A program made the translations under genes and the position numbers. From contig NZ_CP011273.1 in the NCBI RefSeq assembly GCF_001610895.1, positions 4,340,001-4,404,000 on the forward strand: a stretch of 64,000 bases of DNA, written 5' to 3'. This document shows, in pieces, positions 36,755 to 39,789 of this stretch. The notes beneath the pieces were generated by a model. It searched no databases, had not been told where the DNA came from, and saw only the letters and a program-made list of their open reading frames with translations. Source of the stretch: Planctomyces sp. SH-PL62 (lineage in GTDB: Bacteria; Planctomycetota; Planctomycetia; Isosphaerales; Isosphaeraceae). Position 1 is the first letter of the stretch. Each line of letters begins with the position of its first letter.

Positions 36755-38638
36755 GTGGATCGACACGAAGCGCGAGCGGCGGGGCGAGATGGGGACGTGG
36801 TTCGCGGGGATCGTCGTGACTTCCTGAAGGCCGCCGCGGCGCTCGCGGCGGCCGGGGCGATGCCGGGCCGGGCCGGGGCCGCGGAGATCCGCGATGAGGT
36901 CGACGCGTTCCTGAAGGATTACACGACGCGCTGGCTCCCCCTGGAGACGAAGGCCGGAGAGGCCGCCTGGGCAGCCTCGACGGACGTCTCCGAGGCCCAC
37001 ACCGCGGCGCAGGTCGCGGCGAATCAGGCGGTGAATCAGGTCGTCGGCTCGCCCGAGGTCATCGACAAGACGGCCCGGTTCCTGCGAGAGAAGGATCGAC
37101 TCACCGAGTTGCAGGTCCGCCAGTTGGAAAAGGTCCGCCTCCGATCCGCCGAGGCCCCCGGGACGCTCCCCGAAGTGGTCAAGGCGAGGGTGGAGGCCGA
37201 GGCCAAGCAGTCGGCGACCCAGGACGCCTTCGCCTACACCGTCAAGAAGGCCGACGGCTCGGTGGAGAATCCCTCGGCCAACCGGATCGACCAGGTGCTC
37301 CTCACGTCGAAGGACCTCGACGAGCGGAAGGCCTACTGGGAGGCGTCCAAGGAAATCGGCGCCCCGCTTCGCGAGGGGATCTTGAAGCTTCGCGACCTCC
37401 GCAACAAGGTCGCCCGGGAACTCGGGTTCGCGGACTTCTTCGCGCTCCAGGTGGCCGATTACGGGATGAGCGTCGACGAGATGCTCGCCCTCTGCGACCG
37501 GATCGTCGCCGACGTCCGCCCGCTCTACGCCCAGCTCCACACCTGGGCCAAGCATCAGCTCGCCCGTCGTTACGGCGTCGAGGCCCCGGACGGAGCGATC
37601 CCCGCGCACTGGCTCTCAAATCGTTGGGGGCAGAACTGGCCGGGGTTCGTCGAGGGGGTCGACATGGACGCCCCGTTCCGGGGCAAGCCGCGCGAATTCA
37701 TCACCGAGCAGGCCGAGCGGTTCTACACCTCGATGGGCTTCCCCAAGCTCCCGCCGAGCTTCTGGAGCCGGTCCGACCTCTACCCGGCCGATCCCGCCTC
37801 CGGCCGCAAGAAGAACAGCCACGCCAGCGCCTGGCACATCGACCTGGACCAGGACGTCCGCAGCCTGATGTCGATCGAGCCCGACAACCAGTGGTTCGAC
37901 ACCGCCCACCATGAGCTCGGGCACATCTACTACTTCCTGAGCTACGCGAGGCCCGAGGTCCCCCCCCTGCTCCGTCAGGGCGCGAACCGGGCGTTCCACG
38001 AAGGGGTCGGCGACCTCATCGGCCTGGCGGCGGGGCAGCGCCCGTATCTCAAGCAGGTCGGCCTGCTGACCCCCGAGGCCGAGGCCGCGCCGGCGACCAC
38101 CTTCCTGCTCAGCTCCGCCCTCGAAGGCTCGTCGATCGTCTTCCTCCCCTGGTCGGCCGGCGTCATGACCCGCTTCGAACGCGACTTCTACGCCGGGACG
38201 ATCGCCGACGACTCCCTCAACGCCGGCTGGTGGGAGCGGGTCGGCAAGTACCAGGGGATCGCCCCGCCGGGCGAGCGTCCGGAAACCCTCTGCGACGCCG
38301 CGACCAAGACCCACATCAACGACGACCCCGCGCAGTACTATGACTACGCGATCGGCACCGTGCTGAAATTCCAGCTTCACGACCACATCGCGCGGGAGAT
38401 CCTCAAGCAGGACCCCCGCGAGTGCAACTACTTCGGCAACGCCAAGGTCGGCGACTTCCTCCGGTCGATCCTCCGGCTTGGCGCCACCCGCGACTGGAAC
38501 GCCGTGCTCCGCGAGGCGACGGGGGAAGGTTTGACCGCCCGGCCCCTCGTCGCGTACTTTGAACCGCTGAGGGAATGGCTGGAAGTCGAGAACAAGGGCC
38601 GGGCGTCCGGCTGGCCCCAGGACCCCGGAAAACCATGA
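36755..38638 (+). CDS. Tat-exported peptidase of the M2 (angiotensin-converting enzyme) family
   Basis: Encodes 627 residues from GTG. RRDFLK (Arg20-Arg21) followed by an Ala-rich hydrophobic stretch is a twin-arginine signal. The zinc site is His386-Glu387-x2-His390 in AHHELGH, and the third ligand Glu416 lies in FHEGVGD after the conserved RQGAN block. Both the motif order and the length fit family M2 dipeptidyl carboxypeptidases. The HExxH-to-Glu distance is two residues longer than in ACE. It is exported folded, so the metal is probably inserted in the cytoplasm. Its stop overlaps the start of the formylglycine-generating enzyme gene by 4 bp. Confidence 0.88.
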   Translation: MDRHEARAAGRDGDVVRGDRRDFLKAAAALAAAGAMPGRAGAAEIRDEVDAFLKDYTTRWLPLETKAGEAAWAASTDVSEAHTAAQVAANQAVNQVVGSPEVIDKTARFLREKDRLTELQVRQLEKVRLRSAEAPGTLPEVVKARVEAEAKQSATQDAFAYTVKKADGSVENPSANRIDQVLLTSKDLDERKAYWEASKEIGAPLREGILKLRDLRNKVARELGFADFFALQVADYGMSVDEMLALCDRIVADVRPLYAQLHTWAKHQLARRYGVEAPDGAIPAHWLSNRWGQNWPGFVEGVDMDAPFRGKPREFITEQAERFYTSMGFPKLPPSFWSRSDLYPADPASGRKKNSHASAWHIDLDQDVRSLMSIEPDNQWFDTAHHELGHIYYFLSYARPEVPPLLRQGANRAFHEGVGDLIGLAAGQRPYLKQVGLLTPEAEAAPATTFLLSSALEGSSIVFLPWSAGVMTRFERDFYAGTIADDSLNAGWWERVGKYQGIAPPGERPETLCDAATKTHINDDPAQYYDYAIGTVLKFQLHDHIAREILKQDPRECNYFGNAKVGDFLRSILRLGATRDWNAVLREATGEGLTARPLVAYFEPLREWLEVENKGRASGWPQDPGKP

Positions 38639-39789
38639 ACCGACTCGTCTGGATTCCGCGCCCCGCCGGGCTCCGATTGCTCGCCCTGATCCTGTCCTCG
38701 GCGGTCCTCGGCTGCGGGGAGTCGCCGGCGCCGTCCCCCGAGACGACGGCCGCGACAGCGCCGGAACAGACCGCCGTCGCGGCCCCGGCGGTCCCCGTCG
38801 ATCCCGACGCTCCCCCCGCCGAGCCCGCGCCCGAAGGCATGGTCTGGATTCCGGGGGGCGTCTTCACGATGGGGACGAACGATCCCGAGGCCCACGTCTC
38901 CGAGCGTCCTGCGCATCGCGTGAAGGTCGACGGCTTCTGGGTCGACGCGACCGAGGTCACCAACGCCGAGTTTCGCAAGTTCGTGGATGCGACCGGATAC
39001 AAGACGACGGCCGAACGCCCCGTCGACTGGGAGGTCATCAAGGCCCAGCTCCCGCCGGGGACGCCCAAGCCTCCCGACGAGCAGCTCGGCGCGGGGTCCC
39101 TGGTCTTCACGCCTCCCGCCGGGGCCCTCCCCCCCGGCGGGCTCGACGACCTGACCAACTGGTGGCGGTGGGTGCTCGGCGCCGACTGGAAGCATCCCGA
39201 CGGCCCAGACGACTCGATCGAGGGCCAGGACGACTTCCCCGTCGTCCACGTGTCATATGACGACGCGGTCGCCTACGCGGAATGGGCCGGGAAGCGGCTC
39301 CCGACCGAGGCCGAGTGGGAACGCGCCTCGCGCGGCGGTCTCGACGGCGCGAAGTACGGCTGGGGAGACGTCTTCACCCCCGGCGGCAAGCGGATGGCCA
39401 ACACCTGGCAGGGCCGCTTCCCAGAGGTGGTCGAGGACCAGGACGGCCACCCCCGGATCGCCCCCGTGAAGTCGTTCCCTCCCAACCCCTACGGCCTGTA
39501 CGACACCATCGGCAACGTCTGGGAATGGTGCTCCGACTGGTATCGCCCCGACACCTACCGGCTCCACGGCGAGGTCGACGTGACGGTCGACCCCAGGGGA
39601 CCCGACGAAAGCTACGATCCCGACGAGCCGTTCCAGCCCAAACGCGTCACGCGCGGCGGGTCGTTCCTGTGCAGCTCCAATTACTGCTCGAACTACCGGC
39701 CCAGCGCCCGTCGCGGCACCGCGACCGACTCGGGGATGTCTCACCTGGGATTCCGCTGCGTGAAGCCCCCGGCGTCACCCGCGAAGTGA
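38635..39789 (+). CDS. Formylglycine-generating enzyme-type lipoprotein with both catalytic cysteines
   Basis: Encodes 384 residues. A lipoprotein signal with lipobox AVLGC (Cys27) and an Ala/Pro/Thr-rich linker precede an FGE-sulfatase (SUMF1) domain from about residue 68: GMVWIPGGVFTMG, RLPTEAEWE, YDTIGNVWEWCSDWY and the C-terminal GGSFLCSSNYC. Cys346 and Cys351 have the spacing of the copper-binding catalytic pair of human SUMF1 (Cys336/Cys341), and the tail SHLGFRC also matches. Most bacterial proteins with this domain lack the cysteines. The predicted reaction is oxidation of a sulfatase active-site cysteine to formylglycine. The ATGA overlap couples it to the M2 peptidase. No sulfatase gene is in the window. 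Confidence 0.88.
   Translation: MNRLVWIPRPAGLRLLALILSSAVLGCGESPAPSPETTAATAPEQTAVAAPAVPVDPDAPPAEPAPEGMVWIPGGVFTMGTNDPEAHVSERPAHRVKVDGFWVDATEVTNAEFRKFVDATGYKTTAERPVDWEVIKAQLPPGTPKPPDEQLGAGSLVFTPPAGALPPGGLDDLTNWWRWVLGADWKHPDGPDDSIEGQDDFPVVHVSYDDAVAYAEWAGKRLPTEAEWERASRGGLDGAKYGWGDVFTPGGKRMANTWQGRFPEVVEDQDGHPRIAPVKSFPPNPYGLYDTIGNVWEWCSDWYRPDTYRLHGEVDVTVDPRGPDESYDPDEPFQPKRVTRGGSFLCSSNYCSNYRPSARRGTATDSGMSHLGFRCVKPPASPAK

Follow-up and report, generated by a model that had tools for sequence, protein, structure and literature searches.

Bacterial formylglycine-generating enzyme (FGE) is taken to act in the cytoplasm, and the locus described here raises the question of whether a bacterium may instead keep its FGE outside. 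The locus lies in a stretch of 64,000 nucleotides from Planctomyces sp. SH-PL62 (contig NZ_CP011273.1, positions 4,340,001 to 4,404,000 of the forward strand; hereafter the window, from whose first letter all positions are counted). Here a gene for a putative lipoprotein of the FGE family, P0002, overlaps the end of a gene for an ACE-like peptidase of family M2. A preliminary description of this DNA had proposed that P0002 is a catalytically complete FGE, which would act on already exported proteins, either sulfatases or the co-encoded peptidase. Our analysis confirmed the sequence finding, left the extracytoplasmic reading well supported but not proven, and did not support the link with the peptidase. 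With a probability of roughly 0.7, we consider P0002 to be a Sec-exported, lipidated, copper- and oxygen-dependent FGE that matures Sec-exported sulfatases extracytoplasmically.

P0002, a predicted lipoprotein of the FGE family

The gene of P0002 (positions 38,635 to 39,789, plus strand) encodes a protein of 384 residues that matches PF03781 with 280 bits. Its ATG overlaps the stop codon of the peptidase gene; a longer reading frame of 404 codons would open at 38,575, a start that is less likely because the signal peptide begins at 38,635. By eye, we recognized a lipobox, VLGC, at residues 24 to 27 (38,704 to 38,715, plus strand), and an N-terminal export or anchor segment was found by both eye and hydrophobicity score. 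The lipoprotein signal proposed earlier is upheld by this lipobox, together with the hydrophobic N-terminal export segments of relatives.

Besides the lipobox cysteine at residue 27, P0002 has cysteines at residues 299, 346, 351 and 375. In alignments, C346 (39,670 to 39,672, plus strand) and C351 (39,685 to 39,687, plus strand) are the equivalents of C336 and C341 of human FGE, both of which are copper ligands. phmmer aligned GGSFLCSSNYC of P0002 with GGSYMCHRSYC in the human enzyme and with GGSFLCHESYC in that of Thermomonospora curvata (E near 1e-77), and mutant entries among the structure matches confirmed the human numbering. Furthermore, an alignment of 27 rows shows no variation at the two cysteines or at the GGS serine. 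Non-equivalence of the two pairs, which the preliminary description had named as its refuter, was not seen, and chance or mis-aligned cysteines were ruled out by the phmmer alignment, the 27-row alignment, the structure matches and the domain scores.

An AlphaFold2 model of P0002 had a mean pLDDT of 84.6, with residues 1 to 54 under 50. When this model was submitted to Foldseek, the first 26 chains were all FGE crystals (43-45% identity, TM-score by target 0.84-0.92), followed by two chains of the human paralogue SUMF2 (33%), which presumably lacks the cysteine pair. P0002 therefore has the domain, the fold and the copper-binding pair of FGE/SUMF1, and shares with the canonical enzymes of human, Streptomyces coelicolor and T. 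curvata the fold, 43-45% identity, the pair and the GGS serine. It differs from canonical FGEs by its inserts, its lipoprotein signal and its position in a tree, where it branches separately from the human and T. curvata enzymes. According to the excerpts of PMC7279497 that we consulted, human FGE is an endoplasmic reticulum (ER) protein, and two prokaryotic structures hold Cu(I) by two cysteines.

FGE-fold proteins outside the cytoplasm have precedents of other kinds. PvdO, which takes part in pyoverdine maturation in Pseudomonas, is an FGE-family protein that acts in the periplasm with a chemistry different from that of FGE; its similarity to P0002 is weak (E 7e-13) and limited to residues 202 to 304, so that the cysteine pair lies outside the comparison. 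PorK, GldK, GldJ and OCTIN are exported proteins with an FGE fold and a structural role, and the existence of such proteins gives some ground for reading P0002 as a structural lipoprotein without catalysis. Unlike P0002, PorK/GldK/GldJ and OCTIN are without the catalytic cysteines in the excerpts of PMC12421860 and PMC5915273 at hand. This difference, along with the retention of the pair in nearly all relatives (see below), makes a purely structural role very improbable. In the literature searched, part of it in excerpt and with some papers on FGE enzymology outside it, we found no account of a bacterial FGE that is exported and has the cysteine pair, in keeping with the novelty that had been claimed.

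Relatives of P0002 and the export routes of neighbouring sulfatases

A search of the phylum with P0002 (294 sampled genomes, E<=1e-30, up to six candidates scored per genome) returned matches at 72 places in 66 genomes. Seventy of these places were read, all but the one in the window itself and a short fragment in G210. The cysteine pair was present at 65 of the 70 loci, and one of the five others (L120) stops at a contig end. A wider contig scan, whose patterns placed no demand on the pair, confirmed 583 loci, and the pair was found in all of the best 80 of them. With the window's own locus included, the pair occurs in 146 of 151 loci overall. Within the family to which the window belongs, P0002 had matches in 41 of 45 genomes, at 49 places besides the window's own; all 29 loci that were read carry the pair and, by eye, a hydrophobic export or anchor segment, the type of which varies between lipobox and membrane anchor.

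An export or anchor segment (lipobox, signal or anchor) was assigned by score and eye to 117 of the 146 pair-bearing loci. The hydrophobicity score gave false calls at 19 of 549 internal positions, and 12 ambiguous or low-scoring loci were reassigned to the exported group by eye (L064, L072, L074, L076, L080-L082, L085, L137, L139, L145 and L210), with only the lipobox part visible at L145, which begins at a contig end. The other pair-bearing loci were five FGEs of canonical type without a signal (L123-L127), 23 members of a nested unsignalled clade, and L198, which is cut by a contig end. Exported members carry the labels Planctomycetota, Bacteroidota, Verrucomicrobiota, Pseudomonadota, Cyanobacteriota with Melainabacteria, and Vulcanimicrobiota; many of the records are metagenome-assembled genomes (MAGs), and the Vulcanimicrobiota label rests on one MAG contig. 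Judged from sequence, the pair-bearing FGE with a predicted export signal is a large class under the labels of six phyla, broader than the preliminary description had supposed.

A quick tree under LG+G4, with 148 rows, human FGE as the root and support from the Shimodaira-Hasegawa-like approximate likelihood-ratio test (SH-aLRT) only, placed 141 rows on a branch (SH-aLRT 99, length 0.51) apart from human FGE, T. curvata FGE and the five canonical-type planctomycete FGEs. P0002 falls outside the group of characterised FGEs, a grouping that activity does not require, and belongs to a group of 63 rows (SH-aLRT 95), every one of them exported once the reassignments by eye are taken into account. 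The unsignalled clade is nested within the 141-row branch and includes three exported members (L179, L191 and L192). The canonical-type planctomycete FGEs L123-L127 share an N-terminal CC-x-P motif (CCTP or CCNPDR, for example) that looks like a redox cysteine pair and, at the same time, like the motif of the sulfatases; the CC motif also occurs in the exported L072, L081 and L134.

Sulfatases of the cysteine type were encoded within about 4 kb of the FGE at 19 of 60 exported-FGE planctomycete loci. The density of PF00884 matches (785 in 25 genomes, 124 Mb) would lead one to expect about 5%, so that the enrichment is about six-fold (binomial p 2e-10), this density being somewhat low because up to about 60 candidates were scored per genome. 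We then compared the N-termini of neighbouring sulfatases: 42 of the 44 beside exported FGEs were of Sec type, whereas the 15 beside nested-clade FGEs without a signal comprised six cytosolic, four Tat-type (twin-arginine translocation; SRRKIL, TRRNVL, NRRDVL and DRRSLL) and five Sec-type enzymes. The Sec shares of 42/44 and 5/15 differed with a Fisher p of 2.6e-6, or 9e-5 if three more on the exported side were misjudged, in a test that ignores relatedness and uses neighbour classes and many signals assigned by eye. Left out of this count were L120 (at a contig end, with no pair visible), L190 (same sequence as L113 in the tree) and the incomplete L161, L178 and L201, together with sulfatase matches without a readable motif; L124, a canonical FGE beside one sulfatase with a loose Tat-pattern signal, was set aside.

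These observations bear on whether P0002, for all its export signal, might work inside the cytoplasm, while it is being exported or earlier, and modify sulfatases there. Such a course would agree with an export signal that is, for P0002, a prediction. However, export or anchor segments persist in all 29 family loci even though the anchor type changes, and unsignalled relatives stand mostly beside cytosolic and Tat-type sulfatases, and we regard action in the cytoplasm as quite improbable. We favor a second branch of FGEs that would be mostly exported, with a nested unsignalled clade going mostly with cytosolic and Tat-type sulfatases. That this branch represents an extracytoplasmic FGE class in several phyla (six labels), its compartment matched to the sulfatase route (exported with Sec, unsignalled with cytosolic or Tat), seems to us somewhat probable.

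A sulfatase with the motif CTAGR was found beside FGEs at 17 loci under several phylum labels (L063, L069, L070, L072, L075, L136-L138, L144, L164, L180, L185, L189, L193, L206, L209 and L212). It is of Sec type beside exported FGEs, and cytosolic or of Tat type beside unsignalled ones.

Sulfatases and their maturases in planctomycete genomes

The genome of strain SH-PL62 (6.78 Mb, 5 contigs, completeness 100) has seven PF03781 places, which we read as five loci. The cysteine pair was found at P0002 only; no pair was seen at the other four FGE-domain loci, of which L031 is broken across two frames and L032 resembles EgtB by eye. Anaerobic sulfatase-maturating enzymes (anSMEs) are radical SAM maturases unrelated to FGE and independent of oxygen, and they yield the same reaction product. 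No match to the anSME model TIGR03942 was found in this genome at E<=1e-3. In 14 control genomes the model had matches in 12 and exceeded its cut-off in 2, indicating that its weak matches fall mostly on radical SAM proteins of other kinds.

The same genome has PF00884 matches at 28 places, read as 24 sulfatase open reading frames; L025 and L026, which continue L024 and L018 respectively, and the weak L027 and L028 were not counted separately. The motif C-x-[PA]-x-R stands at the expected place in 20 of the 24 and is missing from L013, L021 and L023, while the sulfatase-like L014 has CSPSL in place of CxPxR and is probably not modified. An N-terminal export signal was seen by eye in all 20 sulfatases with the motif, and a loose Tat pattern fits two of them (L019 and L020). 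Signalled CxPxR-type substrates, for which the preliminary description had proposed a genome search, are indeed encoded. Of L018 and L024/L025, one, on contig C4, is interrupted by an in-frame TAG within the sulfatase match and the other runs over two frames; these may be pseudogenes or assembly errors. In the excerpts of PMC3920027 available, sulfatases of the cysteine type are as a rule cytosolic and those of the serine type periplasmic, a pattern that the 20 sulfatases predicted to be exported here do not fit. In those of PMC6388578, two Kiritimatiellales strains have most of their sulfatases equipped with export signals and one anSME each.

The only catalytically complete FGE of this bacterium appears to sit outside the cytoplasm, tethered to a membrane. 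From its sequence, the fold prediction, the cysteine pair, the N-terminal export segments of relatives, the gene neighbourhood and the lack of other recognised maturases in this genome, we infer where P0002 resides, that it is catalytic and uses copper, what its substrates are and when it acts. Sec would carry P0002 across the cytoplasmic membrane, and lipidation of C27 would keep it attached to a membrane on that outer side, where it would meet sulfatases emerging unfolded from the Sec channel. There, in a copper- and oxygen-dependent reaction, it would oxidise their C-x-[PA]-x-R cysteine to formylglycine, the reaction that human FGE carries out within the ER.

The phylum offers similar cases. 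Among 60 FGE-bearing planctomycete genomes, 56 have an exported FGE and four the canonical type only; among the phylum-search matches read, the two types occur together only in G231. An anSME over the cut-off is present in 12 of the 56 exported-FGE genomes and missing from 44, with possible further anSMEs in G231 (just under the cut-off) and G129 (in fragments). All 25 genomes searched out of these 44 encode sulfatases (1 to 61 by PF00884). The minimal case is G270, where a single exported FGE accompanies a single exported sulfatase, with the motif CTPTR.

Several observations weigh against P0002 as the sulfatase maturase. TIGR03942 has a match at E<=1e-3 in 43 of the 60 FGE-bearing genomes, and is over its cut-off in 14. 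In a comparison set of 11 planctomycete genomes without a pair-bearing match in the phylum search, sulfatases were found in 10. Nine of these carry 35 to 96 each (G048, G069, G181, G227, G238, G167, G274, G121 and G205), while G007 has 7 and G012 none. No anSME over the cut-off was found in any of the 11, with a single match of 110 bits in G007. No pair was seen at 37 PF03781 places (E<=1e-10) in G048, G238, G167 and G274, several of which have no readable GG segment and some of which lie at contig ends; G069, G181, G227, G121 and G205 were judged pair-less from the phylum search, with its six candidates per genome, alone. Fifteen sulfatase loci were sampled from the nine genomes, and all 13 that could be read have C-x-P-x-R and an apparent signal. 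Either the sulfatases of these nine genomes have a further maturation route or they work without maturation, and a further route may also act in the window's genome. Elimination points to P0002 as the maturase within its own genome, but is weakened as proof by the nine relatives in which many sulfatases occur and no maturase was recognised.

Other points on the same side are more local. No sulfatase of the SH-PL62 genome was found within 500 kb of the FGE gene. Compared with canonical FGEs, P0002 has inserts, DPDEPF ahead of the cysteine pair and others around residues 130 to 175, and its branch of the tree holds no biochemically characterised FGE. The match between FGE and sulfatase routes also has exceptions: L067, an exported FGE, adjoins one unsignalled and one Tat-like sulfatase, the two non-Sec cases of the 44, and the five Sec sulfatases mentioned above adjoin unsignalled FGEs, three of them at L181.

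An unrecognised enzyme might accordingly mature the sulfatases, leaving the exported FGE to oxidise cysteines of other exported proteins. The nine sulfatase-rich genomes in which our searches recognised no maturase speak for this alternative, as does the position of the two characterised FGEs of the tree across the branch from P0002. It is at odds with the enrichment of cysteine-type sulfatases beside exported FGEs, with the recurrence of the CTAGR sulfatase at 17 loci that carry several phylum labels, and with G270 and its one enzyme of each kind. We consider it unlikely, and we retain the maturation of Sec-exported sulfatases by P0002 as the preferred reading.

The neighbouring peptidase gene and the possible meaning of a predicted exported FGE

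The gene upstream of P0002 (36,755 to 38,638, plus strand) has a GTG start preceded by AGGAG, and encodes a zinc peptidase of 627 residues that matches PF01401 over the whole domain with 336.5 bits. Its twin-arginine motif RRDFLK (residues 20-25; 36,812 to 36,829, plus strand) lies within a match to the TAT_signal family PF10518 (residues 19-37; 26.4 bits, cut-off 22.7) and is of the RRxFLK form of Tat substrates. The zinc motif HELGH (residues 386-390; 37,910 to 37,924, plus strand) and the FHEG of residues 414-417, with the third zinc ligand E416 (38,000 to 38,002, plus strand), align with ACE. The zinc site H386/E387/H390/E416 and the Tat signal had been described before, and both are borne out. 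The protein shares the zinc site of the ACE family and, as a single-domain bacterial enzyme with a Tat signal, is an ordinary member of M2.

Could the FGE serve this peptidase, as had also been suggested? The TGA stop and the ATG start overlap by 4 bp (ATGA), which suggests coupled translation, and the M2 gene stands directly upstream of the FGE gene, on the same strand, in all six genomes of the genus (the window's and five others). The peptidase has three cysteines, but no C-x-[PA]-x-R was found in its sequence. Beyond the genus, no M2 gene was seen near the FGE at 24 other family loci (1.5 kb of flank read) or at 150 wider loci (mostly 3.5-4 kb). Furthermore, Tat substrates fold before export, and no M2 enzyme is known to require formylglycine. 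A functional FGE-peptidase unit was rejected because the motif is missing and because, in the flanks read, the pairing was seen within the genus only, and activation of the peptidase by P0002 is hardly credible. The pairing looks like a local arrangement, and the peptidase like an ordinary neighbour.

Sulfatases are abundant in planctomycetes and in other degraders of sulfated polysaccharides. If P0002 and its relatives act as we propose, they would be a bacterial counterpart of sulfatase activation in the ER lumen, with the enzyme placed where copper and oxygen are at hand, which would ease the supply of both. Such an arrangement would shift where and when sulfatase activation happens and would explain how Sec-exported cysteine-type sulfatases are matured. 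It would also suggest how a bacterial copper enzyme obtains its metal, and would provide a periplasmic tool for the aldehyde tagging of proteins.

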